64,000 bases of DNA, taken from NCBI GenBank assembly GCA_028698875.1, contig JAQVVR010000001.1, positions 186,001-250,000 on the forward strand. Reading direction: 5' to 3'. The stretch comes from Candidatus Izemoplasmatales bacterium (GTDB lineage: Bacteria; Bacillota_I; Bacilli_A; Izemoplasmatales; Hujiaoplasmataceae). The notes below the pieces were generated by a model that was not told where the DNA came from, made no database searches, and was given only the letters and a program-made list of their open reading frames with translations. Shown here piece by piece: positions 27,254 to 47,698 of this stretch; within the stretch, counting starts at the first letter, position 1, and each line of letters starts with the position of its first letter. Both the position numbers and the translations under genes were made by a program.

Positions 27254-27284
27254 GTTAATATAGTCGTTTTATAGGGTGGTAAAA

Positions 27285-30200
27285 ATGCCAGAAAAACGCG
27301 AAAACAAGTTATATTCCCTTAAACAAGTCGCTTTGGATGTTTCTAGTCATGATACTAATCTGGCAAACATCGAAACCGCAATCGGGGAAATCCACACCAA
27401 CTATAATTCTGAAATCGCAAAAATCGAAGAAAACTTCGATGTTTTTGGCTTGGAAAATCAAAAAACATACGAACGATATGAAGCTGATTTCACTCGGGTA
27501 TTAGAATATATCGATCAAGAATACTTTGGCTTATTTAAAGCACTAGACGAAGATTTTGTTGCTCATCGCCAAAAATTAGAAAGTCAATTGGCAGCTGAAG
27601 ACGAACAATATCAGAAAATCGTCAAGGCATTTGAGGATTTAGAAAACGATGCTTATTCCACCTACAAGACATTATGTCAAGAATCCGAAGCGGCAATTAA
27701 TAAGGAAACTGAAATTCACCAACGGTTTGTGGATGAACAAACTTCAAATTTTGAAGCGATAAAAGATAAATATAATTTTATAAACAATAATCAATATGAT
27801 AAATTGCTATGGACAATGGAGAAATCCAAAAACGCGCTTAATCAATTGTCTAAACAACTCAACGAGCAAGCCTTTAATGATACCAAGTATATGAATCAAA
27901 CCGTTTTAAACATTATTGAACAATTACGGGACACAAAAAACAAGATTACCGCTTTATTTAAAACCACTACTCAAGCTTTTACCATCAAAAAGGATCGTAT
28001 TGATGAACTCAGTACAATTCGTCAAATTCCCTATTCGGAAATTAATCAAACACTAATTGATCAATATGTCCGTCAAATCACTTCTGTAAACCAAAAAAAG
28101 ATCGCGTTCGATAAATTGGTTAATGAAGATTATCTCAAATCATCAATGATTGTTGGTAAGCGAATAATCGACGCAGACAGCAAAAAAAATCAAAGATTGA
28201 CCAAAAAGTTCATTATGCAATACGGCATCATCAAAGCAAAAAGCAATTACTTGCTGAAGCGCAACCAGCAATTAAGCGACTTATTGATTTCTAAATACCA
28301 AAATGAAATTCGCAAAATCAAGGTTGATTCATTTAAACGAGTTGAAGAGATCAAACTTGCCTATTCATTACCAAGTCATTTTTTTCAAAATTCGATCAAT
28401 CTTTATAGTAATTTTGCTTTTTATGTATCCGAGTCTTTAGACGAACTAGATAACATGCTTTCTGATCTTCTTCGGTTCAATCAGAATATCACCCAAACCT
28501 TTGTGGATTATATGACCAGTAGCACAAAAGCATTTGAAGATTATAAGATAAACTGTCAGGTCACTGTAAATAATATCACTTCTAAAATGACTGACCTGTT
28601 AACAAATATCAATCGTTTTAGCAAAGACATAGTATCACTTGAATCTAAAAACCGGTTGGAAATTGCCGACATTAAAAAGCAAATGGAAAACGCAGATATC
28701 ACTGGTGATTATCAAAAATATCTTGCCACGCTTAACAATGACCGATCCGTGACTGATTTTCAACATACGGTAAATATCAAAAAAACGCAAGTATATGCTG
28801 ATGGTGAGGCCAGTTTGCTTGTCATTCAACGTGAAGTGACCGAGCGCAATCGCCAACGTCAGATTGATCAAGCCGCTTTAAAACATGAGCGACTAATCAA
28901 CAATTTAGAAAAAGACATTCATGATTTGGCATATGATAAGGAACTGGCCATTTGCGAAGCAAGATATCGCCGTGATTTAGCTTTAATCGATCAAGAGCAA
29001 AAACAAACACTGGAAAATGAAGCTTTTTTCAGGGCCAGTCAACAAGATTTTCTGTGGCAAACCCTACAAAAACAATTGGCTGAATATGAACACAATAAAG
29101 CCGTAGGTAGCGACTACGTCGTTGATTTTGTTCATCAAACGCAAAAAATTATTGATGTTGAAAAGTCGAAAACATTAGCGACACAAGCTTATTTACTTGG
29201 TTCAAAACTCCCTTATGCCTATGCTTATCATCTTGAATTGGAACGCGAGGAAGTTAAAAAACATCTCCTTTACCGTACTAGTCAAAAAACGGAGCCATAT
29301 GAAAAAGCAATTCAATATTTTGACCATCTTTTATTTGTGAATCGCAAAAATATCATCAAACAAATCGGTCGATATTCATTATATCTTAAGCACTTGTTGG
29401 CTAATTTGTCAGATGCAAATGCCCCCATTCAAGCCGAATCTCTCTCTTTAGAACATTTTTATCGTTACGAAGTTCTTTCTGTTATCCGCAACAGCCGTGA
29501 AACCGTATCATCGTTGATATCGCCAGAAAAAAACGCTGATTTACTTACTAAAGCAGACAAGTTATTCGATGATGATTTTAAACGAGTCGCTATCTTAACG
29601 ACTTCAGCAGAAAAAAAATGTCTTATGAATGTTAAATCCATAAAGGGGTTAAGAAAATCACTTTTAGGTTACTATGTTGAGATGATTCTCCTTTTAGATG
29701 CATTCTTAGAGCATGTTTACATAATATTAGATGAATTGGAAGAATGCTTAATCAAAAATGATGTTTTAACAGTTAAAAAATATCAAGATGAAATGAACCG
29801 GAAAAAATTAATGATTGACATGGAATACGATTTAGCTGTCTTCTACGCTGGCAAACAGAAAACTAAAGCGGATAAAGCTATTATCATTGTCAATTCGGAG
29901 TGCAAAGCAGTTGAAAACAGGCTGGCAGCACGTGTTTATCAGTTAAATAAAACCTATATCGATGGACTTAAGGAACAAGAAAATTTTATTGATTATTTGG
30001 ATCAAGAACTTTCCCGTGAATACAAAAAGCAGGTTCATTCCAAGACTATTGATTTAAAACAAGAACTTTCCACATTCAAAAAACAAAAACAAACACTTGA
30101 TAATAATCAAAAACGTTATATTTATGCTTACGAAGTTATGAAAAAACAAAATTATTCGCTGGTAGAGCAAGCAAATAAGCGTGCTATGGCCAATCTCGAT

Positions 30201-30746
30201 ATGCAGGATAAACAACGAGCAGAGGGTTTGATTACACTCAACCAGACAATCGAAACATTACCGAAAAAGAATGATCAGATGGTCTCAAGTCTTGAATTAC
30301 AAAAGGAACAATTCGTCAAAAGTCATTCGATGTCTTTAACGCATGAACTCGCTCATATTGAAGAACAAAAATTTATCTCTCGACCAGCATTTTTAACAAA
30401 AATCGCCGAGATTAGGGATCGACTCCCACAAGATTACATGACGTTATACAAGCAAATTGCTATCGCCCAAACTACTTTTGTTAAGCAATATCCTGATGCT
30501 CATGATTTGTATTCTATGGAGTATAATCGTTTTCTCAATAGCCAAACCGAATATAATAATATTTTATTTAATGATTCCATCATACTTCATCCGTTTGAAA
30601 AATATCTTCATGTTTCTGATCGAATCAAGATCAAAACCGATGAAGTCTTCCAAGATACGGTGAAAAAATCAGCTGCTAGGCTTGATGAAATAAAGAAACA
30701 AGCCATCGAATCCGAAGAAAATCAAAAACGCATCATTAATGCCTAA
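27285..30746 (+). CDS. giant coiled-coil protein 1 (1153 residues), function unknown
   Basis: A protein dominated by Glu, Lys, Gln, Leu and Ile in heptad-like spacing from about residue 20 to the end, with scattered Tyr and Phe; breaks occur near 370-400 and 690-720. There is no signal peptide, membrane helix, Walker motif, nuclease motif or sorting signal, so it should be a long cytoplasmic rod. The ATG at 27285 is chosen because AGGGTGG lies five bases upstream; an in-frame GTG at 27276 is part of that SD. It has its own strong promoter and is followed after 16 bp by a second protein of the same kind. A segment near 503-575 aligns locally with residues about 560-620 of the partner. A cytoskeletal or chromosome-organising role is possible but unproven. 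Confidence 0.85.
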   Translation: MPEKRENKLYSLKQVALDVSSHDTNLANIETAIGEIHTNYNSEIAKIEENFDVFGLENQKTYERYEADFTRVLEYIDQEYFGLFKALDEDFVAHRQKLESQLAAEDEQYQKIVKAFEDLENDAYSTYKTLCQESEAAINKETEIHQRFVDEQTSNFEAIKDKYNFINNNQYDKLLWTMEKSKNALNQLSKQLNEQAFNDTKYMNQTVLNIIEQLRDTKNKITALFKTTTQAFTIKKDRIDELSTIRQIPYSEINQTLIDQYVRQITSVNQKKIAFDKLVNEDYLKSSMIVGKRIIDADSKKNQRLTKKFIMQYGIIKAKSNYLLKRNQQLSDLLISKYQNEIRKIKVDSFKRVEEIKLAYSLPSHFFQNSINLYSNFAFYVSESLDELDNMLSDLLRFNQNITQTFVDYMTSSTKAFEDYKINCQVTVNNITSKMTDLLTNINRFSKDIVSLESKNRLEIADIKKQMENADITGDYQKYLATLNNDRSVTDFQHTVNIKKTQVYADGEASLLVIQREVTERNRQRQIDQAALKHERLINNLEKDIHDLAYDKELAICEARYRRDLALIDQEQKQTLENEAFFRASQQDFLWQTLQKQLAEYEHNKAVGSDYVVDFVHQTQKIIDVEKSKTLATQAYLLGSKLPYAYAYHLELEREEVKKHLLYRTSQKTEPYEKAIQYFDHLLFVNRKNIIKQIGRYSLYLKHLLANLSDANAPIQAESLSLEHFYRYEVLSVIRNSRETVSSLISPEKNADLLTKADKLFDDDFKRVAILTTSAEKKCLMNVKSIKGLRKSLLGYYVEMILLLDAFLEHVYIILDELEECLIKNDVLTVKKYQDEMNRKKLMIDMEYDLAVFYAGKQKTKADKAIIIVNSECKAVENRLAARVYQLNKTYIDGLKEQENFIDYLDQELSREYKKQVHSKTIDLKQELSTFKKQKQTLDNNQKRYIYAYEVMKKQNYSLVEQANKRAMANLDMQDKQRAEGLITLNQTIETLPKKNDQMVSSLELQKEQFVKSHSMSLTHELAHIEEQKFISRPAFLTKIAEIRDRLPQDYMTLYKQIAIAQTTFVKQYPDAHDLYSMEYNRFLNSQTEYNNILFNDSIILHPFEKYLHVSDRIKIKTDEVFQDTVKKSAARLDEIKKQAIESEENQKRIINA

Positions 30747-30762
30747 ACCGGAGGGGAAAACC

Positions 30763-33708
30763 GTGGCCGAACAAAACAAAAATCATCCCATAGCCGATTT
30801 AACTAGCGGAAAATCTGTTCTTCAAAGAGAAATCAAACAAGGCTATGCCCAAGAGATTTCCCTTTATGAGGATTTTTTTGACAAGGTCACACAACATGCA
30901 AAAACACATCGTCAAATTTCAATCAACAATTTAAAAGAATCCGAAAAAAGGCTTCATCAGCTGAAAACCAACGCCGAGAAGATAGCTGACTCAATTTTTT
31001 ATCATGATGAAGAAATTGTTGTTCAACGTTCGCGAATTATCAGTGAAACCGAAGATCTCGTTCGAGTTCAAAATGAAGATATCCTCCATCACGATCGCCT
31101 GAGTTTCGATGACACAATTCAGGCCATAGATTATCTCGCAAAGGCTTTAATGCAAGTTAAATATGATTTCATAGGTTTTTATTCTCGTAGTCATCTCAAT
31201 TCAATCCTTTCGACTGAAGATTTTTTTGACTATTATATGCAAAAAAGTCATGCATTTCAAGTTATCTTGGATCGGCATCAAAATGAAGTATATGAATTAT
31301 TCGTTAAACTTGATGAGCAAATCAAGTCTATGGATGATGCCATAGGCAATATTATCCAATCTAAAAACCGAAAAGTAACCGATATTGAAACTTTTTATGA
31401 CAAAGAAGCTCATCATTTTGCCGATAATCAGTTGTCTTTTTCCGCCGAATCCGATCCGACTTCAATTGAAATTCAAGCTCTTGCCAGTGACAAAATCAAC
31501 CAATATAAGGCTTTTTGCGATCATTCCATCCATCAAAATATGAAAATTCAAAAAGTATTGGAAGACGATTACTTGACCTTATATCAACGCGTCTTGGGAC
31601 GTTTATTACAAAGCCGTTCTTACCAAATAATCAATCGTTTTGATCTGTTTGATGACCCCTTGCGCTTCAAGATTGAATATAAGCAAAAACTCCTTGACGC
31701 TGAAGCAAAGGGATCAAAGGAATTACGAAGTTTACTGCGAATCTACCAAAAGATTTGTCGTTGGCAAAAGGATGTTCGCTCAGCGGAAACAAGAGCTACT
31801 ATGATGTTAAAAACTCAAGCCAAGCGCAAAGAAACGCTTCTTAAACTTTCTGAAGAAACCTCAGTTATACAAATGAATCGCCTTGAACTTTATCTCAACG
31901 AGTACCTTGAAGTAATGAAGTTTGATCCGTTTCTCGCCCAGGCAATTGGTGATTATTCGTCAAAAATCATTAAGGATGAACTAGCTCGCCTTTCCCTTCT
32001 AAAACTTAACAAAGAACTAAAAACCAATATCGATTACGATATTCAAGCGACCAAGATTAAAAGTCAGATAAACGAATTAGAAATAATTATGATGAACTCA
32101 ATAAAAAAGCATTTATACCTTCAGGAAGGCGAATTGCTTAGTGAGTTAAATAAAATCCCCTTGTTCTTACTCGAAAAACGGCATCAACTGATTTCTTCTA
32201 GTTTAGCAATTCTGCGTGAACGTCATCTGATTGAACGTTTGGATAAAGCCACAAATGAGCATTTAGCATATCTATTAGTAAGTGGTAATACTAGTCGCAG
32301 ATGGATCTCGATTGTCTCCGATGAACTAATTAGTAATACCCGTGATAAAGAAACTCATAATATTTATGTCGTGGAAGCAAAATCAGAAATTGAATTGGCA
32401 TTAAAACAATATGATATAAGCGCCATTCATATTCAAACAATGTATGAAAACGAAAAATCATATTTGGTAATGCAAAAAAGTCGTGTGGATGAAGAAACCA
32501 AGATAAATAACGATTTCATCTTGACGACGTATTTAAATCAAATGCGCTTTGCACAAGAACAAATTGCTTTAGCCGAATCCGAATACCGAGTACGTCTAGA
32601 ATCCTTAATGGTAACTATCGATCAAGAACGCAAGTTTTATAATGATCAAATCAACTTGGTTCATGTTAAATATGACCAAAATGTTCGTCTTATTGAAGAT
32701 GCATATCAAGCCAAATTATATTCTGAATCTCATAAAATTGCGGAAACCGTCGACAAAAAAGCACAAAAAGCTTTAGCGATTTCCTTAGAGAAAGATCGCC
32801 GCATCCGTGACCAGCAAGTAAATGTGCTTGTTAAGAGTCTGGCAGGCGATGAAGTCATCATTAAATCGCAAAACCAACTTCGTTCAATTGATGATCAACT
32901 CCAAGAAGCCATTCATGACGCTGATGTTTTACGGGAAGCGACGATTCGGGAATTCACTGAACTATACGAACATGCCAAATCCCGTTATGAAATACTAAAA
33001 CCTTATATGGATAATGCCATAAATATTCTTGACCCGACCTTTTATGATGGCTTGGCCGCTATCAACGAGCGTTATCATGCCAAAATCCATGAAGCTGAGT
33101 CGGAGCTCGATCGTAAAATTGAGAAACTTTTACCCCAATACCGCGAAGTATTCTTTACTCAAGATGTTGAAGACCATTCATTAGATTACCGAGCACGTAT
33201 CGAAGAAATAATGATGGAAAGGGAAACCAATGAAGCCGTTTACCAGCAAAAATTGCAAGCCGTTGAAAATCATTACCGGCAAGAATTAACTATGATTGAT
33301 GCCGAAGAAGAAAGTTCTAAAAGCGCATATAAAGTTGAAATTGATACAATTCACAACAAAGAAGTCGCTACTTCCGCTCAATTTGCGCAAATGGCAAAAA
33401 CGATTGATGCCGAAGGTGATGCAAAAATCAAAGCGCATCGAGAAGCCACGTTATCGACGATTAATCAATTAACAGATGAATATTTCATATCGCTTAAAGC
33501 TTCTAAAAAAACGATTGCCGATTTGTCCGATGATTTTCAAAAACTTCTTGATGGTTACCAAGATTATCTAGGTTTTTCCGAGGGCGAAAAAAAATATCGT
33601 TACGTTCTGAAATCCATCAAGAAAGCTAACCGCAAGAAACTTCATAATTCCTTAAAACAACTAAAGATAAAATATCGTCATTATCACATCTTTAATCAAA
33701 AAAATTAA
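30763..33708 (+). CDS. giant coiled-coil protein 2 (981 residues), function unknown
   Basis: A second long coiled-coil protein with no signal peptide, membrane segment or catalytic motif. The GTG at 30763 is the probable start: GGAGGGG lies six bases upstream, whereas the in-frame ATG at 30739 lies inside the end of the previous gene and has no SD. The rod covers most of the length, with a Pro/Asp break around residue 750 (NILDPTFYDGL). The last about 35 residues are strongly basic (KSIKKANRKK and following), a candidate nucleic-acid or membrane contact. Segments like YENEKSYLVMQ (about 561-571) resemble YADGEASLLVIQ in the partner. It ends at its own terminator. Confidence 0.83.
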   Translation: MAEQNKNHPIADLTSGKSVLQREIKQGYAQEISLYEDFFDKVTQHAKTHRQISINNLKESEKRLHQLKTNAEKIADSIFYHDEEIVVQRSRIISETEDLVRVQNEDILHHDRLSFDDTIQAIDYLAKALMQVKYDFIGFYSRSHLNSILSTEDFFDYYMQKSHAFQVILDRHQNEVYELFVKLDEQIKSMDDAIGNIIQSKNRKVTDIETFYDKEAHHFADNQLSFSAESDPTSIEIQALASDKINQYKAFCDHSIHQNMKIQKVLEDDYLTLYQRVLGRLLQSRSYQIINRFDLFDDPLRFKIEYKQKLLDAEAKGSKELRSLLRIYQKICRWQKDVRSAETRATMMLKTQAKRKETLLKLSEETSVIQMNRLELYLNEYLEVMKFDPFLAQAIGDYSSKIIKDELARLSLLKLNKELKTNIDYDIQATKIKSQINELEIIMMNSIKKHLYLQEGELLSELNKIPLFLLEKRHQLISSSLAILRERHLIERLDKATNEHLAYLLVSGNTSRRWISIVSDELISNTRDKETHNIYVVEAKSEIELALKQYDISAIHIQTMYENEKSYLVMQKSRVDEETKINNDFILTTYLNQMRFAQEQIALAESEYRVRLESLMVTIDQERKFYNDQINLVHVKYDQNVRLIEDAYQAKLYSESHKIAETVDKKAQKALAISLEKDRRIRDQQVNVLVKSLAGDEVIIKSQNQLRSIDDQLQEAIHDADVLREATIREFTELYEHAKSRYEILKPYMDNAINILDPTFYDGLAAINERYHAKIHEAESELDRKIEKLLPQYREVFFTQDVEDHSLDYRARIEEIMMERETNEAVYQQKLQAVENHYRQELTMIDAEEESSKSAYKVEIDTIHNKEVATSAQFAQMAKTIDAEGDAKIKAHREATLSTINQLTDEYFISLKASKKTIADLSDDFQKLLDGYQDYLGFSEGEKKYRYVLKSIKKANRKKLHNSLKQLKIKYRHYHIFNQKN

Positions 33709-39533: not shown

Positions 39534-41675
39534 TTATTCTTGTTGCGGCTGTTGTTTGCGAAGACCTTCTAAAACGGCTTTACGGGAAAGGTCAACTCGG
39601 CCTTTATCATCGACACCGATAACCTTAACGGTGATAACGTCACCAAGTTTGACCACATCTTCAGTATTTTCAACGCGTTTAACATCTAGTTTAGAAATAT
39701 GACATAGTCCTTCTTGCCCGGGCCATAATTCCACGAAAGCGCCAAATTTTTCAACGCGTGTAACTTTTCCTGTATATACGGCCCCGATTTCAACATCTTT
39801 GACAAGATCTTCGATCATCTTGGCGGCTTGGTTAACAAAATAGAGATTTTCATGCATAATGGTAACGCGTCCATCTTGTTCAATATCGATTTTGACGTTG
39901 CCACATTTTTCAATAATTGCCGAAATGATTTTTCCACCCGATCCGATGACATCACGGATTTTATCGGGAGCAATCCGCATAATTTTGACTTTTGGTGCGT
40001 ACTTAGATACTTCTTTACGCGGTTCTGCAATCGCGGCAATCATCACTTCAAGAATTTCCATCCGACCTCTTTTAGCTTGCTCTAAAGCTTCACTCAAGAT
40101 TGCTTTGGAAATACCGCTGCATTTAATATCCATTTGCAAGGCTGTGATGCCATCTTTAGTACCAGCAACCTTGAAGTCCATATCACCAAAATGATCTTCT
40201 AGGCCCTGAATATCGGTTAAAATTGTGTAATTATTATCTTTTTTTATTAAACCCATCGCGATGCCAGCAACTGGTGCTTTAATCGGGACACCAGCAGCCA
40301 TTAATGACATTGTGCCTGAACAAATTGTTGCTTGCGAAGAGGAACCATTAGATTCCAAGACTTCAGAAACAACCCGAACAGTGTATGGAAATTCGTCTTC
40401 GGTTGGCATAACTTGTAGTAATGCGCGTTCGCCTAAGGCACCATGACCGATTTCCCGTCTTCCCGGTGAACCATAACGGCCAGTTGAACCAACGGAGTAC
40501 TGTGGGAAGTTATAATGCAACATGAAACGTTTGCCTTCTTCGATAGTCGCATCATCAATGATTTGTGCTTCGCCTAAAGCACCAAGGGTGGTGGTGGCAA
40601 AGACTTGGGTTTGGCCGCGAGTAAAGAGGGCCGAACCATGAGTTCGCTCAAACAAATCTATCTCCGCAGCGAGGGGACGAATTTCGTCTACTTTGCGGCC
40701 ATCGGGACGGATTTTATCGACTGTGATTAAGCGGCGAACTTCATTGACTTCGATTTCTTCTAAGACTTTGGCTACAAACATTAAGCGGATAGCAATCTCA
40801 TCTTTGTCAAAACCAGCTGTTTTATATTTCGCTTCTAAAGTATCCTTGATTTCATTGCCGATATCTTCAATGGTGTTTTGGCGTTGAAGTTTTTCAAAAA
40901 TCGATACCGATTTAGTGATTCGACCGCCATCCAATGCGTAAACATCAGCGCGAATATCTTCAGGAACCGTTATCAAGGGAATTTCCATTTTTGGTTTTGC
41001 GCAAGCAGCGATGATTTCTTCTTGGAAAGCTACTAATTCTTTAATTTTTTCATGACCGAACATAATTGCCTCTAACATGTCAGCTTCGGTAACCTGTTTG
41101 GCACCGGCTTCAACCATATTGATAGCATCTTTGGTTCCCGCAACAGTTAAATCGATATCCGATTGAGCCATTTGTTCAGCGGTAGGATCACAGATAAGTT
41201 CACCATTAATTCGACCAACCATGACACCGGCAACAGGACCATTGAATGGTACTCCGCCTAATCCCAAAGCTAAGCTGGAGCCAAGTAAAGCTGACATTTC
41301 TGGTGAATTATCATAATTAACTGACATGACGGTGCTGATAATTTGAACTTCGTTGCGGAAGTTATCATCAAAAAGTGGTCTTATCGGTCGGTCAATGACA
41401 CGGCAAACCAAGGTTTCATGCTCCGTTGGCCGGCCTTCGCGTCGTAAAAAACCTCCAGGAATTTTTCCTACCGAGTATAATTTTTCTTGGTATAAAACCA
41501 TTAATGGGAAGAAATCACCAGCAGAAGGCTCTTTGCCAACAACACAAACGGACAAAACTGCCGTATCATCGAAACGGACTAAAGCCGCTCCCGTGGTTTG
41601 CTTAGCCAGTTGTCCAACTTCAACGACCAACTTACGACCGCAAAAAGTTTTGGTAAAAATTTGTTTTTCGTTCAT
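39534..41675 (-). CDS. pnp: polynucleotide phosphorylase
   Basis: A 713-residue 3'-5' exoribonuclease/RNA polymerase. It has two RNase PH domains separated by an alpha-helical linker (the second contains [16 protein letters not shown] and the active-site region [19 protein letters not shown]), then a KH domain ([12 protein letters not shown]) and an S1 domain ([15 protein letters not shown]). The ATG at 41675 has GAGGAA upstream; reading further upstream would run through the rpsO terminator. It follows rpsO as in most bacteria. Confidence 0.97.
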
Positions 41676-41783
41676 TACTATTCCTCTTTTCTCCATGAAT
41701 CTGATTTTTCGGGGGCTTTTCTGCCCATATTTAAGGCGCCAACGAGTTGCAATTAAACCCTTGCGGCGTTTCTTACAAATAAT

Positions 41784-41810
41784 AAGCACCCAAACGATGT
41801 TGGGTGCTTT
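41784..41810 (-). terminator. hairpin between rpsO and pnp
   Basis: AGCACCCAA(A)C pairs with GTTGGGTGCT around ATCG; on the minus strand TTATTATTT follows, a weak U-tract. It may be a leaky terminator or a processing site separating rpsO and pnp, as at the E. coli rpsO-pnp junction. Confidence 0.75.
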
Positions 41811-41822
41811 CATGCCAATTGA

Positions 41823-42092
41823 CTATCGTCTGAGTCCGAGTTTTGCAATGACTGCTTGATAGCGGTCATTAGAAATGGACTGCAAATAGTTAAGCATACT
41901 CCGACGTTTTCCAACTTTGATCAATAGACCGCGTTTGGAATGGAAATCGTGTTTATGCACCAACAAATGTTGGTTTAATAATTCGATTTCTTTCGTTAGT
42001 AATGCGACTTGGACTTCCGGTGAACCGGAGTCGCCTTCTTTTGTCCCGAAATCTTTGACGATTTCATGGGTCAATTCTTTGCTTAATGCCAT
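41823..42092 (-). CDS. rpsO: 30S ribosomal protein S15
   Basis: An 89-residue S15 that binds the 16S rRNA central domain and bridges to 23S. Family signatures: DTGSPEVQ-like sequence GDSGSPEVQVALLTKEI (about 22-38), LNQHLLVHKHDFHSKRGLL and GKRRSMLNYL. The ATG at 42092 has AGGAGG eight bases upstream; the open frame upstream is the structured leader. It is transcribed from a near-consensus promoter. Confidence 0.97.
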   Translation of the reverse strand: MALSKELTHEIVKDFGTKEGDSGSPEVQVALLTKEIELLNQHLLVHKHDFHSKRGLLIKVGKRRSMLNYLQSISNDRYQAVIAKLGLRR

Positions 42093-42121
42093 TTGTTTTT
42101 TCCTCCTATGATACTGACTTA

Positions 42122-42168
42122 CCTGGATCCGAAGCAATCGTTGGAGTGTCGGTTGTTTCCGGTTCAGG
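42122..42168 (-). promoter_or_regulatory. structured rpsO leader, candidate S15 autoregulatory element
   Basis: Nested stems: CCTG (42122-42125) with CAGG (42165-42168), CCG (42129-42131) with CGG (42160-42162), and CAATCG (42135-42140) with CGGTTG (42150-42155, one mismatch). The element sits between the promoter and the SD. S15 leaders regulate their own translation in several phyla with different structures; that this is one of them is inference. Confidence 0.45.
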
Positions 42169-42178
42169 CGCAAAAATT

Positions 42179-42207
42179 ATTATATCATATGCTTCTTGCT
42201 TATGCAA
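42179..42207 (-). promoter_or_regulatory. rpsO promoter
   Basis: The -35 is TTGCAT (42207-42202), the spacer 17 bp, and the -10 TATAAT (42184-42179) with a TGA extension. Transcription would begin near 42172, leaving an 80-nt leader. Confidence 0.87.
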
Positions 42208-42223
42208 GGGAAATTTCTTGTGA

Positions 42224-44035
42224 TTATAGCATGCTTTCGAGGCCTTTGAGAATAACATACATTGAGTAGGTGTCTTGTTGGCAATATGCTAAAAGATTAT
42301 TGATGGTACTCTGTCGTTCACTGGTTTCAATTTCCCCAAACCGAGCATATTGCAGATAAGCCATCATTCCGTTTGCAATTGGTAATCCCTCATATCCGCT
42401 CGCATCAAACAGTGGCAATACTTTTTTGAGCGAATAACTACCGCCCATTTGCGGGTGATAATAATTGTATGAATCGGCAATTTCTTTGGGGAATCCACGA
42501 GCCGCAAAAAAATCATAATCATTTTTTAAAACGCGAAGTAAATCGAAGAGTCGTGAAGCGATCTCATTAAGTCGTTTGGCATATGCAGGGAACATAGTTG
42601 CTAATTCCATAAGTCGATTTTTTTCAAAAGTTTTATTATAAACAATTACTGAAGAATCTCCTTCTGGAATAGCTAATAAGAGGCTTTTAATCAAGTCTTC
42701 GCGATGATCTCCTTCTGAGGTGTCAATATATTCATAATGGGTTTTTGGATTGTTTTTTTCTAAATATCCCCGTTTAGTCTGGACGTGAACAGAAAATTGA
42801 AAAACGCTTTGTGAATAGGGGGATTCACCACGAAAACGGGGAATAATTGCTGGATAAGCTTCAAAATCGAGATAGTACAGTGGATAACAAAGGGTATCTA
42901 ATATCGCTTTGACTTTTGGTTTGTTTATGAAGGTATAATCATTTTCAACACAGTATCTTTGCATTAGGTTTTTTTCTCTTTGAAGCCACGAAATCGGAAT
43001 GTCGAGCATGTCAACAACTCCTTCATTGATTAAATCATATGTGTCGTGACAAATATCAGTTTTCTTCGGTCCCTCCGCAAATCCAAGATGTTGCTGGAAA
43101 TAATGGAAGATGGAATTGTTTTTCGGAATATGAGAGAAACAATAGTCAGCAAACTGACATTCAAAAGAGGTATTTTTTTGACATTCGTTTTTAACTAATT
43201 GGCAAGGTGAATCATCGTTAAGATTGATATGATTAAGCATCCGGTATAAATCAATCTCAATGGTTTCCGTTGTATCTGCTATGATTGCGGAAACATCAAA
43301 CAAAGAAATAAGATTAAAATCAGCTTTCGGTTGCAAATCGGGATTACCATCATAAACATACTGGTGGTTGAGCATCACCAGATACGATTTGATTGTTTGA
43401 TGCGGATAGAGTTTGTGAAGAATATAGGCTTTAAAAGCCAAATCAAAGAAATGACGACCACTGTCATTTCTCCGATCAGTCAATTTCTCTAATCGATCGG
43501 AAAAATTGGAATGAATGGTTGTGGATATCTTCGTTTTTTTGTATGTATAAATACCTTGTTCATTTTTAGTAAAAAATTGATATTTGGTTTTTCCCAAATT
43601 ATATTTCCAGTTAATCAACTCTTTATCAGTCACTGGCAAAACGGTAAATGCATATAAAGTATCAGAATAAAAACCCATTAAATCCAGACGCGCCAAAAGC
43701 GGATCTCCTGAAGCGAAATTTACCGTAATTTTTTGATTTTGCGACCACATCACATCGGGATAAAGGGATTGAATTTTCGCATAAGCAATCGCTTTTATGG
43801 CATATACGGCTTTCGATGTCACCTCTGCATGCAGTTGTTTTTTTTGCACCGTTTCATCTGGATCATCTTCATCCACAGTCGATTGATAGTTGTTTTTTAC
43901 AGATAAACATTTTAATGCCAGATATTTATCATCTTGGGATGAGGAATTCATCTGTCTTGCCGACATGCGGCTATCCAAAGCGGCATAACGGCGGCACCGA
44001 AGATAATTTAACAGATCAATCGTGGTGATAATCAT
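42224..44035 (-). CDS. DUF2779 protein: degenerate Cas4/RecB-like region fused to a DEDDy exonuclease-like domain
   Basis: A 603-residue protein. The C-terminal half has a DnaQ-like 3'-5' exonuclease arrangement: Asp390-x-Glu392 in YLDFEAYP (Exo I), YNKTFEKNRL at 466-475 (Exo II) and Tyr584-x3-Asp588 in YCQQD (Exo III). The N-terminal half resembles Cas4/RecB proteins: Cys14 in YLRCRRYA and a late cysteine cluster (Cys278, Cys285, Cys293, Cys299), suggesting a Fe-S or Zn site. The nuclease strand LARLDLMGFY keeps the Asp, but the expected ExK is replaced (LYAFTVLP), so the PD-(D/E)XK site looks dead. The start follows GGAGG. It probably acts on nucleic acid; a repair or defence role is inference. 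Confidence 0.72.
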   Translation of the reverse strand: MIITTIDLLNYLRCRRYAALDSRMSARQMNSSSQDDKYLALKCLSVKNNYQSTVDEDDPDETVQKKQLHAEVTSKAVYAIKAIAYAKIQSLYPDVMWSQNQKITVNFASGDPLLARLDLMGFYSDTLYAFTVLPVTDKELINWKYNLGKTKYQFFTKNEQGIYTYKKTKISTTIHSNFSDRLEKLTDRRNDSGRHFFDLAFKAYILHKLYPHQTIKSYLVMLNHQYVYDGNPDLQPKADFNLISLFDVSAIIADTTETIEIDLYRMLNHINLNDDSPCQLVKNECQKNTSFECQFADYCFSHIPKNNSIFHYFQQHLGFAEGPKKTDICHDTYDLINEGVVDMLDIPISWLQREKNLMQRYCVENDYTFINKPKVKAILDTLCYPLYYLDFEAYPAIIPRFRGESPYSQSVFQFSVHVQTKRGYLEKNNPKTHYEYIDTSEGDHREDLIKSLLLAIPEGDSSVIVYNKTFEKNRLMELATMFPAYAKRLNEIASRLFDLLRVLKNDYDFFAARGFPKEIADSYNYYHPQMGGSYSLKKVLPLFDASGYEGLPIANGMMAYLQYARFGEIETSERQSTINNLLAYCQQDTYSMYVILKGLESML

Positions 44036-44058
44036 GGAATTCCTCCGTTCCTCTGATG

Positions 44059-44070
44059 TGTCATATCCAT
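44059..44070 (-). promoter_or_regulatory. extended -10 upstream of the DUF2779 gene
   Basis: TGATATACT on the minus strand lies about 30 nt before the ATG, after a T-rich tract; no good -35. Coordinates are approximate. It is supported by the terminator just upstream, which separates this gene from the NUDIX gene. Confidence 0.45.
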
Positions 44071-44099
44071 TCTCAGTATATCACACTTGCGAAAAAAAA

Positions 44100-44126
44100 T
44101 ATAAAAAAAACTCCTTAAAGGAGTTT
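44100..44126 (-). terminator. terminator after the YczE-NUDIX pair
   Basis: AAACTCC pairs with GGAGTTT across TTAAA, followed by eight T residues on the minus strand. It overlaps the NUDIX stop codon. Confidence 0.87.
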
Positions 44127-44604
44127 AGATACTGTTCAAAAGACCGATTAACTCACGTTGATGAATATTATCTCCATATGGGTTTTGACTGGAATAATTT
44201 TCCAAAATACCCAAAAACTCATATATATCGTACCACTTTATTGTTAGATTTGCTTGTTTTTCGGCTTCGGTCAAAGTTTGACGATTTACGTCTTCAGAGA
44301 TGACATTACAACGAAAAAAATGGGATTCCCAAGTTTCATTGGCAAAATATTCCATCACGACACAAGTTTGGTCTCCTACTGTAACGATAACTCCGGTTTC
44401 CTCAGTGATTTCTCGGGCGCAACACTGAGCAAAAGTTTCATTGGGTTCAACACCACCACCCGGAAGGTTGAACACATCGGTTGTCTGCCAATATTCGCCC
44501 AAAATCTTATCATTTTTAATGACAATCCCGCGACAGGAGATGTGCCTATTTTGCAGTGCGATATGAGCACGGTCAATTCCATCTGCAAAAATTTCGATTA
44601 TCAT
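44125..44604 (-). CDS. NUDIX hydrolase
   Basis: A 159-residue NUDIX protein. The box GGGVEPNETFAQ...REITEETGV (about residues 50-73) matches the consensus GX5EX7REUXEEXGU fully. The substrate is unknown. It overlaps the upstream YczE-like gene by four bases (ATGA), so the two are translationally coupled. This is the second NUDIX gene in the window; it is not closely similar to the one before valS outside the motif. Confidence 0.88.
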   Translation of the reverse strand: MIIEIFADGIDRAHIALQNRHISCRGIVIKNDKILGEYWQTTDVFNLPGGGVEPNETFAQCCAREITEETGVIVTVGDQTCVVMEYFANETWESHFFRCNVISEDVNRQTLTEAEKQANLTIKWYDIYEFLGILENYSSQNPYGDNIHQRELIGLLNSI

Positions 44605-45242
44605 TTAATTGCCTCCAAAATTTTGTACACTGAATTTTTAAATAAGTCGATAAGGGGTCCAATCGCCACTCCGAAAATTATTGTTGCGGCACCAATGTAA
44701 AACCATTGTTCATAATGCCCGAAGATGATTCCGAAGATGACGGTTAAGACTAAGGCTAGCATTTCTCCAATGAGTTTACCTCGTCCGTAAGTCGAATGAA
44801 TTAAAACACCAATACCATAGCATAATTCATCAAGAGCTGGTAAAGGAAAATGACAATACGTAACCATATTCAGTCCAATAGCACATATAAAAAGTGATCC
44901 CCCAAGGTATAAGAGGTTCCAAAACAATCCCATTGTCGCAACGCTTGGAACCACCAGTTCTAATAAATCGATAATCCAGCCAACATAGGTGCTAACAACA
45001 AGAGGGAATAGAATCCATAAAGTGATTTTTTTCTTTTGAATCGCATAAGCAATTGGTAATAAGATCAAAGCAATCAAGGGATTTAAATACTTGTATGCCA
45101 ATGGAATTCCGATATTAAGGTTGCGGTAGAAAGCATCCCAAGCATCCATTCCGAGATTGGTTTTAAGCATCAAAGTGACGCATACACCCAAAAACGCTAA
45201 ACCAATCAAGTATATCATGATGTTTTTGAATGTAAATTTCAT
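44601..45242 (-). CDS. YczE/YitT-like integral membrane protein
   Basis: A 213-residue protein with about five to six hydrophobic segments. The N-terminal LIGLAFLGVCVTLMLKTNLGMDAWDAF-type pattern, a short Gly-x-Asp/Ala-Trp-Asp motif after helix 1, resembles YczE (membrane protein near the Bacillus srf operon) and YitT families. The PALDELCYG segment near 136-144 is also typical. The activity is unknown. AAGGAG precedes the ATG. It is first of a two-gene unit with a NUDIX gene; the 5' region 45243-45340 has only a weak promoter candidate (TTTACT/CATAAT). Confidence 0.72.
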   Translation of the reverse strand: MKFTFKNIMIYLIGLAFLGVCVTLMLKTNLGMDAWDAFYRNLNIGIPLAYKYLNPLIALILLPIAYAIQKKKITLWILFPLVVSTYVGWIIDLLELVVPSVATMGLFWNLLYLGGSLFICAIGLNMVTYCHFPLPALDELCYGIGVLIHSTYGRGKLIGEMLALVLTVIFGIIFGHYEQWFYIGAATIIFGVAIGPLIDLFKNSVYKILEAIK

Positions 45243-45344
45243 AGTAAATCTCCTTAAATATCTGAAGGCTTAAAAACTGTTTAAACTAAGATTCTTGAGT
45301 CTGTTATTCCATCCAATTATGCTTTAACAGCCAAAAGCAAGTAA

Positions 45345-45370
45345 AGAAAACCGCCTAGTAACCTAGGCGA
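45345..45370 (-). terminator. terminator after lon
   Basis: CGCCTAG (45352-45358) pairs with CTAGGCG (45363-45369); on the minus strand GTTTTCTTTA follows, an imperfect U-tract. Confidence 0.72.
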
Positions 45371-45376
45371 TTATCG

Positions 45377-47698
45377 TTATTTGAGTAAAGCAAAATCCAA
45401 GACTTCATCAATAGTTTCGGCAAACCCGAATTCTAAGACATCCAAAACTTCTTTGGGAATTTCGTCAAGGTCCTTCTCGTTGCCTTTGGGGATGATGACT
45501 CGCTTCAATCCGCTACGAGCAGCAGCGATACATTTTTCTTTCAATCCCCCAATAGGTAAAACCCGACCCATTAATGTGATTTCTCCGGTCATACCGGTGA
45601 ACCGATCAACCTTCCGATTTGATAAAGCCGAAACGATGGCAGTCGCAATTGTGACGCCAGCGGAAGGTCCATCTTTAGGAATGGCCCCTTCAGGGACATG
45701 GATATGGATATCGGTTTTTTCAAACAAATCGGGATTAATCCCATATTTTTGCGCATTGGATCGAACATATGAAAGTGCTGCCATGGCTGATTCCTTCATC
45801 ACATTTCCTAAATTTCCAGTTAGAACCAAAGCATTCTTCCCTTCAAAATGGGTTGCTTCAACGTCAAGAGTGTCGCCACCAGCAACGGTATAAGCTAGTC
45901 CTGTTACGACACCAATCATGTTTTCATTACGAACTTGATTATTATGGAACAATGGTTTGCCAAGGTAATTAACCAGATTTGGTACATCGACAGTAACTAG
46001 ACTTAGTTTATTTACTAATATTTCTTTGATTGCTTTGCGAACGATAGAACCAAATAAACGTTCTAACTGACGCACACCAGCTTCACGAGTATAGTCTTTA
46101 ATAATAGTTCTAATCGCTTCATCAGTAAAAACAATCTTGTCCATTTCCAAGCCGTGGTTTTCCACTTGCTTCGGAAATAAAAATTTGCGAGCAATGTGGA
46201 ATTTCTCAATTTCAGTATATGAAGATAATTCAATTACTTCCATCCGATCGCGAAGTGGGGCGGGAACATTTTCTAGATAATTGGCTGTACTGATAAAAAT
46301 AACCTTTGATAAATCATAGTTTTCTTCAATATAGTGATCACTGAAAAATTGATTTTGCTCCGGATCAAGAACTTCTAAAAGCGCCGATGAAGGATCATTG
46401 CGTTCATCGACAACCAATTTGTCGATTTCATCAATTAAGAAAACCGGATTAACTACTCCAGCTTTGATCATTCCGCTGATGATTCTGCCAGGAAGCGCAC
46501 CGACATAGGTGCGGCGATGGCCACGAATCTCAGCTTCATCCCTAACACCACCAAGTGATGTTTTGACGAATTTGCGATTTAGGGCATTGGCAATAGATTT
46601 AGCAAGGGACGTTTTTCCTGTTCCTGGGGGTCCATATAGACAGAGAATGGTTTGGGGATTTTTTCCGGTAAGCATCTTGACGGAAAGGTATTCGATAATT
46701 CGTTCTTTGACTTTGTCGAGGCCGTAATGCGCCTGTTCAAGTTTGTCGATAGCAACGGTAATATCCTTTTCATCTTCCGTTTGTTTGGCCCAAGGAATAC
46801 TGATTAAAGTTTCTAAATAAGTTCTAACCACACTTGATTCAGCAGAGCTGGTGGAAAGATATTCAAACCGTTTCAACTCTTTTAAGGCTTTGTCCTTAAC
46901 ATCTGCCGGCATATCGGATTTTTCAATAGCTTCCAGCAGTTTTTTTACATCGTCGTCTTTGCCATCACCGAGTTCTTCCTGAATGGCACGCATTTTCTCA
47001 CGCAAATAATACTCTTTTTGACTTTGATCGGTCGATTTGCGTACCGATTCATTGATTTTGCTTTCTATTGACTGAAGATTTTTCTCTTTTTGGATATCTT
47101 CTAATAAAAACTGCAAACGTTTGTTAATCGAAATTGTGATTAGATATTTAACTCTTTCGTTTTCCGTAATTCTTAATTCTGAAGCTATTAAATCACAAAG
47201 TCGGTCACTAGTGATACCCCCTTGCATGGAATCAAGGATCTTTTTGGAATCGCGGAAAAGAAATTGCGCGTTTTCCACTACTTCCTTGGAAACCATTTTA
47301 AGAAGGACTTGTTCTTCATCTAAATTCTCGGGATGAATCACCAAACTGGTGAAGTCAACAAGGAAAAACGGTTCTTTAGCAATCAAATCATTGACCTGAA
47401 CGCGACAAACCGGTTCGAATTTTATTTTGAAGTTTCCGTTTGGTAATTTTATTTTTACTGAAATCCGTGCTAACAATCCGACTTGAATCAGGTCAGAAAG
47501 CTCTGGTTCGGTTATTTCAGGATTGTTCTGAAACAGTAAAACGACATATCCATCACGGTTGGTTTCGGATTCAAAAATGGCGTTTTTAGAGAAATCTCTG
47601 CCCACTTCAACACGAACATCGGAATTGGGTAAGAAGATGACTCCACGAACCGGAACGGCTGGCAGTCGGTCATTATAAATGCGATTGGCTTCATACAT
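45377..47698 (-). CDS. lon: ATP-dependent protease Lon
   Basis: A 773-residue LonA protease. The N-terminal substrate-binding (LAN) domain covers about 1-200, then a coiled-coil region. The AAA+ module has Walker A GPPGTGKTS and Walker B VFLIDEIDKL. The S16 protease domain has the catalytic serine in PKDGPSAGVT and the lysine in GGLKEK. It lacks membrane helices, so it is the cytosolic A type. It is monocistronic with a promoter at 47773-47801, a palindrome in the 5' UTR, and a terminator. Confidence 0.97.
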   Translation of the reverse strand: MYEANRIYNDRLPAVPVRGVIFLPNSDVRVEVGRDFSKNAIFESETNRDGYVVLLFQNNPEITEPELSDLIQVGLLARISVKIKLPNGNFKIKFEPVCRVQVNDLIAKEPFFLVDFTSLVIHPENLDEEQVLLKMVSKEVVENAQFLFRDSKKILDSMQGGITSDRLCDLIASELRITENERVKYLITISINKRLQFLLEDIQKEKNLQSIESKINESVRKSTDQSQKEYYLREKMRAIQEELGDGKDDDVKKLLEAIEKSDMPADVKDKALKELKRFEYLSTSSAESSVVRTYLETLISIPWAKQTEDEKDITVAIDKLEQAHYGLDKVKERIIEYLSVKMLTGKNPQTILCLYGPPGTGKTSLAKSIANALNRKFVKTSLGGVRDEAEIRGHRRTYVGALPGRIISGMIKAGVVNPVFLIDEIDKLVVDERNDPSSALLEVLDPEQNQFFSDHYIEENYDLSKVIFISTANYLENVPAPLRDRMEVIELSSYTEIEKFHIARKFLFPKQVENHGLEMDKIVFTDEAIRTIIKDYTREAGVRQLERLFGSIVRKAIKEILVNKLSLVTVDVPNLVNYLGKPLFHNNQVRNENMIGVVTGLAYTVAGGDTLDVEATHFEGKNALVLTGNLGNVMKESAMAALSYVRSNAQKYGINPDLFEKTDIHIHVPEGAIPKDGPSAGVTIATAIVSALSNRKVDRFTGMTGEITLMGRVLPIGGLKEKCIAAARSGLKRVIIPKGNEKDLDEIPKEVLDVLEFGFAETIDEVLDFALLK

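Follow-up and report, generated by a model that had tools for sequence, protein, structure and literature searches.

An inert Cas4-like, probably iron-sulfur-containing region joined to a predicted 3'-5' exonuclease in a DUF2779 protein, some orthologues of which lack both nuclease sites

The window, a stretch of 64,000 nucleotides, comes from a Candidatus Izemoplasmatales bacterium, a relative of the wall-less mycoplasmas. On its minus strand a Nudix hydrolase gene, a DUF2779 gene and rpsO follow one another in reading order (Table 1). The DUF2779 gene is the only copy in the source genome. Pfam PF11074 (DUF2779) matched its product over residues 387-535 (E 1.9e-36, 125.5 bits against a gathering cut-off of 23.3), and no other Pfam family, Cas_Cas4 (PF01930) included, matched the protein at E up to 1. 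Two NCBIfam models aligned below their cut-offs: the UU173 family (NF045869) over residues 123-595 (55.6 bits, cut-off 225) and TIGR03491 (TM0106 type) over residues 3-119 (22.1 bits, cut-off 97.45). A Candidatus Izemoplasmatales MAG contig carries the nearest named relative, at 82% identity in the best segment. A sequence-only reading of this DNA had described a DUF2779 protein, and both the ORF list (603 aa, ATG start, minus strand) and the PF11074 match agree with it. The residues it had numbered (C14, D390, E392, YNKTFE at 466-471, Y584 and D588) all stand at those positions, its late cysteine cluster is C278, C285, C293 and C299, and the terminator it had placed upstream of the gene was found as a terminator-like hairpin (44126-44108).

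Table 1. Features of the DUF2779 locus, in coordinates of the window.
Feature	Position	Strand	Basis
DUF2779 gene, 603 aa, ATG start	42224..44035, stop codon within	(-)	ORF list; Pfam PF11074
Cas4/RecB-like nuclease region at the N-terminus (roughly residues 1-165), without its catalytic site	43541..44035	(-)	BLASTP to f3 orthologue; weak TIGR03491
D118, acid left from PD-(D/E)XK site	43682..43684	(-)	27/29 f1 main copies, 9/9 f3
T131-V-L133, at position of E-x-K in relatives	43637..43645	(-)	ExK in 0/29 f1 main copies, 9/9 f3
C14, first of four Fe-S-type cysteines	43994..43996	(-)	48/48 invariant
Cysteine segment, residues 263-305, C278/C285/C293/C299	43121..43249	(-)	C285, C293, C299 invariant 48/48
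C-terminal DEDDy-type 3'-5' exonuclease domain (predicted), residues 383-603	42227..42889	(-)	AlphaFold2 + VIA-align
Exo I D390-F-E392	42860..42868	(-)	residue check + alignments
Exo II E471, in YNKTFE (466-471)	42623..42625	(-)	residue check + alignments
Exo III Y584-x3-D588	42272..42286	(-)	residue check + alignments
Terminator-like hairpin between Nudix gene and DUF2779 gene	44108..44126	(-)	12 such sites in 41500-45500 vs mean 3.2 in shuffles
Nudix hydrolase gene upstream (159 aa, with a Nudix box)	44125..44604	(-)	Pfam PF00293, E 1.9e-12
Downstream neighbour rpsO (S15), from likely ATG	41823..42092	(-)	Pfam PF00312, E 4.3e-30 on longer ORF

Majorek 2014, on the RNase H-like superfamily, lists DUF2779 as family F.17 of the exonuclease clade, 'presumably' 3'-5', and reports a DUF83 (PD-(D/E)XK-like) domain found with DUF2779 and with COG2251 (F.13) (PMC3985635). 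PathFams gives DUF2779 as a member of the Pfam RNase H clan (PMC8442362). Both the two-domain architecture and the prediction of a 3'-5' exonuclease were already in print in 2014 (PMC3985635). Our searches of the open literature showed no biochemical data on the DUF2779 family.

The window protein's own family is coded f1 here, and f3 is another family of the same order. Motifs were counted in 109 relatives, with L005 (partial), L170 and L171 (unrelated DnaQ-like ORFs) and L172 (open end) left out of the count; L031, identical to L023, was dropped from the alignments. The D...ExK motif was intact in 62 of the 109. It was kept throughout f3 (9/9), in f12 (12 sequences), f13 (5), f16 (4), f18 (6), f5 (2), f6 (13) and f7 (8), and in two 480-aa f1 paralogues and L061. 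It was lost from all 29 f1 main copies, from f21 (11/11), from f17 (6/6, hardly alignable there) and from the single f10 sequence. Where ExK-intact families read like DIYN...IIEVKATTS, the window protein has D118 and T131-V-L133, as the sequence-only reading had seen in a nuclease strand that keeps its Asp and lost ExK. This loss is a property of the whole f1 family and not of the window's gene alone. The Q of a QhXXY-like motif was present in 9/9 f3 rows and, judged by eye, in the same column of 4/29 f1 rows.

Against one intact f3 orthologue, BLASTP aligned residues 1-305 of the window protein with 24% identity (E 2e-21, for this single comparison), and one f1 paralogue, L007, gave a Cas_Cas4 match at E 2.8e-11. 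Such a match at E up to 0.1 was obtained for only two members of alignment A1, which holds 48 sequences and is without f6, f17 and f21. When a profile of the N-terminal part of f1 was compared with the Cas4-like paralogues, the probability reached only 25% over 36 columns, and the link to Cas4 therefore rests on orthology, cysteine layout and weak structure matches. Among sequences with unusual first sites, the f21 proteins (L138, L151, L152, L154-L156, L158, L160-L162, L168) are 454-501 aa long, have D-to-P or D-to-T changes and retain the exonuclease acids in 11/11; the first site is dead in this family as well. The f17 proteins (L163-L167, L169; TGA read as Trp) are 619-872 aa long, have the exonuclease acids in 6/6 and are not alignable at the four cysteines and ExK. 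L172, cut short by the end of its contig, shows the D, E and K together with the first three of the exonuclease acids. L061 (G033, contig 367) is a very divergent 655-aa DUF2779 protein from an f1 draft genome with 6% contamination, and may lie on a foreign contig.

C14, C285, C293 and C299 were invariant in alignment A1 (48/48), as were D390, D498 and Y584. The four cysteines stand together in every one of the 29 f1 main copies, none of which has ExK, and they are also kept without ExK in f21 (10/11; L158 has a gap at the C14 column) and in the f10 copy. The reverse pattern was seen in f6, with ExK in 13/13 and the full cysteine set in 0/13 at these columns, and in f17 neither the four cysteines nor ExK was found. 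The patterns of f1, f21 and f10 set against that of f6 show that the cysteines and the nuclease site are separable in loss. Residues 263-305 had the highest conservation among the compared stretches in every f1 group. C278 and C362 had been candidates for f1-only cysteines and were dropped, as they occur in 5/80 and 20/80 of the other sequences, respectively.

One N-terminal and three C-terminal cysteines make up the Cas4 layout (PMC4176176), and the same set in the window protein probably assembles into an Fe-S cluster. In AddAB, binding of DNA ends requires an intact Fe-S cluster, and in two Cas4 proteins nuclease activity survives cysteine mutation (PMC4176176). Since those Cas4 mutants still cut, any role given to a cluster in the window protein is tentative. 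For the 'iron staple' nucleases of the Cas4/AddB type, the same source describes a debate about the cluster, which some of these enzymes need to bind ends or to be active and others can do without when they cut (PMC4176176).

An AlphaFold2 model of the window protein, built with 48 sequences (pLDDT 89.0, pTM 0.84), predicts an RNase H-like exonuclease fold at residues 383-603. This part was matched by VIA-align to family-B polymerase exonuclease domains, best to 8g99_A (Z 15.4, rmsd 2.7, 175 aligned), with the other 49 matches listed at Z 13.0-15.1 and archaeal polymerases at about Z 13; for this model and for that of an orthologue, L065, these comparisons hardly probe the N-terminal part. The top match is a Pol alpha domain, itself exonuclease-dead. 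The sequence-only reading had proposed a comparison of the model with Cas4 and DnaQ. The best whole-model Foldseek rows did include the Cas4-family protein ACE1 (probability 0.87, 0.89 and 0.77; ranks 1, 2 and 4), MGME1 (0.96) and Cas4 SSO0001 (0.77), but neither the window nor the L065 model gave a row at E up to 0.001. The VIA-align matches listed were family-B polymerase proofreading domains, and DnaQ may stand alongside them. Sequence searches against solved structures gave five matches at E 0.22 or worse in one search and none in two others.

All four acids of the exonuclease site (D390, E392, E471 and D588) were present in 103 of the 109 relatives, that is, in 23 of the 29 f1 main copies and in all 80 other sequences; the six exceptions are all f1. 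The sequence-only reading had made its claim depend on an RNase H-like fold in the predicted structure and on conservation of D390, E392 and D588; the model has this fold, and the three residues are conserved in nearly all relatives. The window protein has both the D-x-E of Exo I and the Y-x3-D of Exo III. At Exo II all 103 intact sequences have E where D is canonical, and by its E471 the window protein would be classed as DEDDy-type and not as a canonical DEDDy member; because of this E, its exonuclease activity is not assured. Alignments and model agree with the earlier description of a dead Cas4/RecB-like part followed by an apparently intact DEDDy-type exonuclease.

Collectively, these results lead us to favour, with moderate confidence, a window protein that acts as a one-site 3'-5' exonuclease and uses its inert Cas4-like Fe-S part as a nucleic-acid-end clamp. 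The protein would join a Cas4/RecB-like Fe-S domain to a polymerase-B-type DEDDy 3'-5' exonuclease. The four-cysteine cluster would hold together the inert N-terminal part. This part probably binds the end of a nucleic acid, DNA rather than RNA, and would feed a single-stranded 3' end into the exonuclease at the C-terminus, where the one site predicted to retain cutting ability lies. The sequence-only reading had cast the N-terminal part as a platform for the exonuclease. The cysteine module does outlive its nuclease site, but with six orthologues in which the exonuclease is dead too, a platform for the exonuclease cannot be the full account.

The six f1 main copies that have lost the exonuclease residues as well comprise five of genus g11 (L062-L066) and one of g5 (L067). 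At the three motifs the g11 copies (5/5) read LDLS or LDIS, Y-N/K-K-P/A... and YS-Q/K-H/Y-KA, and the g5 copy reads LDVG, VFGAG and YSENT; D390 and D498 are retained in 6/6. Their reading frames are open over 551-576 aa, and the model of L065 (g11; pLDDT 91.7) has the same exonuclease fold, with Z up to 15.7. Nei-Gojobori dN/dS was 0.102, 0.124, 0.149 and 0.190 in four g11 pairs, rough values as dS exceeds 1, and 0.046-0.128 in five exonuclease-intact f1 pairs. The double-dead g11 copies are under purifying selection. We rejected the idea that they are pseudogenes, as they come from five genomes, two of them single-contig (G019 and G025), with open frames and dN/dS well under 1. G019 and G025 encode a fully intact 480-aa paralogue besides the main copy, and G012, G029 and G032 have the main copy only, in drafts that are 95, 87 and 80% complete. 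The g5 copy comes from one fragmented genome, 72% complete and in 360 contigs.

Within g11, dN/dS was 0.080-0.148 up to residue 380 and 0.127-0.265 in the exonuclease part. The five intact pairs go in the same direction, so this contrast is no special sign of change. A better sign is the drop in exonuclease-domain identity, which is 32% between g11 and g6 compared with 51% between g9 and g6, the cysteine stretch standing at 73% and 63%. Conservation among the g11 copies is highest at residues 263-305 (mean identity 0.86). All five share a new segment, DDxxEYKxFRLxND, at about residues 555-568 of the window protein; this may point to a new role and not to decay. As the six orthologues keep the cysteines without an exonuclease site, cutting is not the sole reason for keeping the clamp, and these double-dead orthologues suggest that the module also has a nuclease-independent job.

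The same observations bear on a different account, in which the protein is a pseudoenzyme scaffold: selection would keep the Fe-S and middle module for binding, sensing, or holding a partner, for instance the Nudix hydrolase or a complex of repair proteins, and the exonuclease would be an addition discarded in two lineages. The twofold origin of the exonuclease loss in 6/29 f1 main copies (see below) agrees with this, as do the five open g11 frames at the same locus with dN/dS of 0.10-0.19, the top conservation of residues 263-305 in g11 and the fold kept in the L065 model. However, a dispensable activity would not predict that 23/29 f1 copies retain every exonuclease acid, and the higher dN/dS of the exonuclease part in g11, found also in the intact pairs, shows nothing alone. 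We consider the scaffold account unlikely and continue to favour a clamp that serves a single, apparently intact exonuclease in the window protein.

PF11074 matches were found in 39/61 genomes of the 'relatives' set and in 81/149 genomes, most of them nearly complete, of a class set. The f1 profile matched in 30 of 34 family genomes; 29 have a full-length main-type copy, and G028 has a fragment of 57 profile positions that was left out of the alignment. There was no match to this profile in G009, G016, G027 and G015, most of the 34 genomes being drafts. The first three of these, all drafts without a DUF2779 match, are three of the four g8 genomes, and g8 adjoins the double-dead g5 copy in the tree. 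The main protein tree omits L005, the tree of the N-terminal and middle parts omits L005 and L027, and the tree of the C-terminal half omits L005, L013, L038, L040, L041, L049, L134 and L170-L172. The f1 main copies fall on one side of a branch with an SH-aLRT of 99 in the main tree and 100 in the C-terminal-half tree (28 copies). The DUF2779 gene is chromosomal and vertically inherited, the protein tree following genera.

The tree of the N-terminal and middle parts gave two origins of exonuclease loss: 0/200 bootstrap trees unite the dead copies, and the AU test rejects one clade (p 1.4e-5). A single origin was rejected on this tree; only the quick C-terminal-half tree unites the dead copies (one change), with a long g5 branch beside g11, and we read this union as long-branch attraction. 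Presence of ExK requires four changes on the C-terminal-half tree, where deep branches are weak; this is consistent with independent losses in f1, f21, f17 and f10. The first nuclease site appears to have been lost in the f1 ancestor. It is possible, and we offer it only tentatively, that an enzyme with two nucleases is becoming an iron-sulfur protein without catalysis, with the first site lost in the f1 ancestor, the second lost at least twice, and the cysteine module, middle segment and fold still maintained by selection; the function selected in the family would then be binding, sensing or scaffolding, not cutting.

In 22/27 f1 loci the gene is followed directly by the rpsO cluster, and a pnp-type cluster, the name pnp being read from the gene's sequence and not from a search, lies no more than three genes away in 26/27; the g11 copies occupy the same rpsO/pnp locus. 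A Nudix box was seen in the gene upstream in 23/26 f1 loci (absent in L060, L067 and L073) and in 4/5 f3 loci. L057 and L079, with no usable upstream neighbour, were left out of the neighbour, gap and Nudix counts. A trigger-factor cluster replaces rpsO and pnp as the next gene downstream in 5/6 f3 loci. The DUF2779 gene is separated from its upstream neighbour by 9-14 nt in the 14 loci of g6, g9 and g11, 32 nt in g5, and 4-12 nt in 4/6 f3 loci, the others being an antisense ORF call (L088) and 217 nt (L089). In 11 loci of g1, g2, g3, g4, g7, g8 and g10, the window included, the gap is 38-309 nt and holds a T-tailed hairpin in 11/11 (raw count); a hairpin also occurs in 5/14 close-gap loci, but within coding sequence (raw count). 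The short gaps in g6, g9, g11 and most f3 loci suggest that the Nudix-DUF2779 pair is probably ancestral. The earlier term 'monocistronic' plausibly fits the window's sub-lineage. In g9 (L060, L074, L077, L082) the upstream ORF is 389-413 aa long and clusters with YczE-like and Nudix ORFs of other genera, as if fused, with a Nudix box in 3/4.

These neighbours would suit an exonuclease that acts on RNA ends together with the Nudix hydrolase, near rpsO and the pnp-type gene. A transposon mutant of the Mycoplasma bovis DUF2779 gene is reported as growth-deficient with host cells and not in axenic medium, in a screen that also gave nanoRNase and cyclic dinucleotide phosphodiesterase mutants (PMC7373297). 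Yet the same screen is also reported to have given three DNA replication, recombination and repair genes (PMC7373297), f3 has trigger factor where f1 has rpsO and pnp, and the structural matches listed are DNA polymerase domains. A role in RNA end processing is, in our view, improbable.

A role in defence, raised in the sequence-only reading, did not hold up. The Cas4-like origin of the N-terminal part would be compatible with a nuclease directed against phages or plasmids, and distant DUF2779 proteins occur on 29 plasmid records, all below 60% identity and none covering 80% of the query. Against this, PADLOC-DB 2.0.0 gave 0 families at E up to 1, a phage collection gave no match, and the gene keeps one conserved chromosomal housekeeping locus, beside tig, lon, rpsO and lepA, with a protein tree that tracks genera. 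We hold a defence function to be highly improbable. The plasmid proteins, among the 20 matches listed, are mostly from Arcobacter, Aliarcobacter and Helicobacter, at 25-31% identity. Elsewhere in the window, two overlapping plus-strand ORFs, 27276-30746 (1156 aa) and 30739-33708 (989 aa), have a coiled-coil look by eye; an AddAB-like identity for them was dropped, with no Pfam or NCBIfam family over cut-off and no PADLOC match.

We found no account of double loss in DUF2779 proteins in the open literature, a search that leaves subscription journals mostly outside its coverage, and as far as these searches go the stepwise loss of nuclease sites with the Fe-S module kept is new. The relatives form a natural graded series, with both sites, with the exonuclease only, or with neither, and the last two kinds in f1 all keep the four cysteines; f6 is the opposite case, with both nuclease sites and without the full cysteine set at these columns. 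Given this series and f6, the role of the Fe-S module when nothing is cut is directly testable with natural proteins.

Set against the published DUF2779 architecture, f1 is without ExK, and six of its members are without the exonuclease site too. COG2251/TIGR03491 proteins are related by the DUF83 domain common to COG2251 and DUF2779, whereas the window protein matches them only weakly, at residues 3-119. It shares the four-cysteine layout of the Cas4/AddB 'iron staple' nucleases, but is without their catalytic ExK and is fused to a predicted exonuclease. With the exonuclease of family-B DNA polymerases it has the fold, DxE and YxxxD in common, but it has no polymerase domain match and carries E at Exo II. 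TP1, the nucleocapsid protein of TTV1, is described as a Cas4 derivative that has lost its catalytic residues and has a non-enzymatic role (PMC4625639). Both proteins are thus Cas4-like with catalytic loss; TP1 is viral, has a split gene and serves in the capsid, whereas the window protein is bacterial, chromosomal and joined to a second, often intact nuclease.
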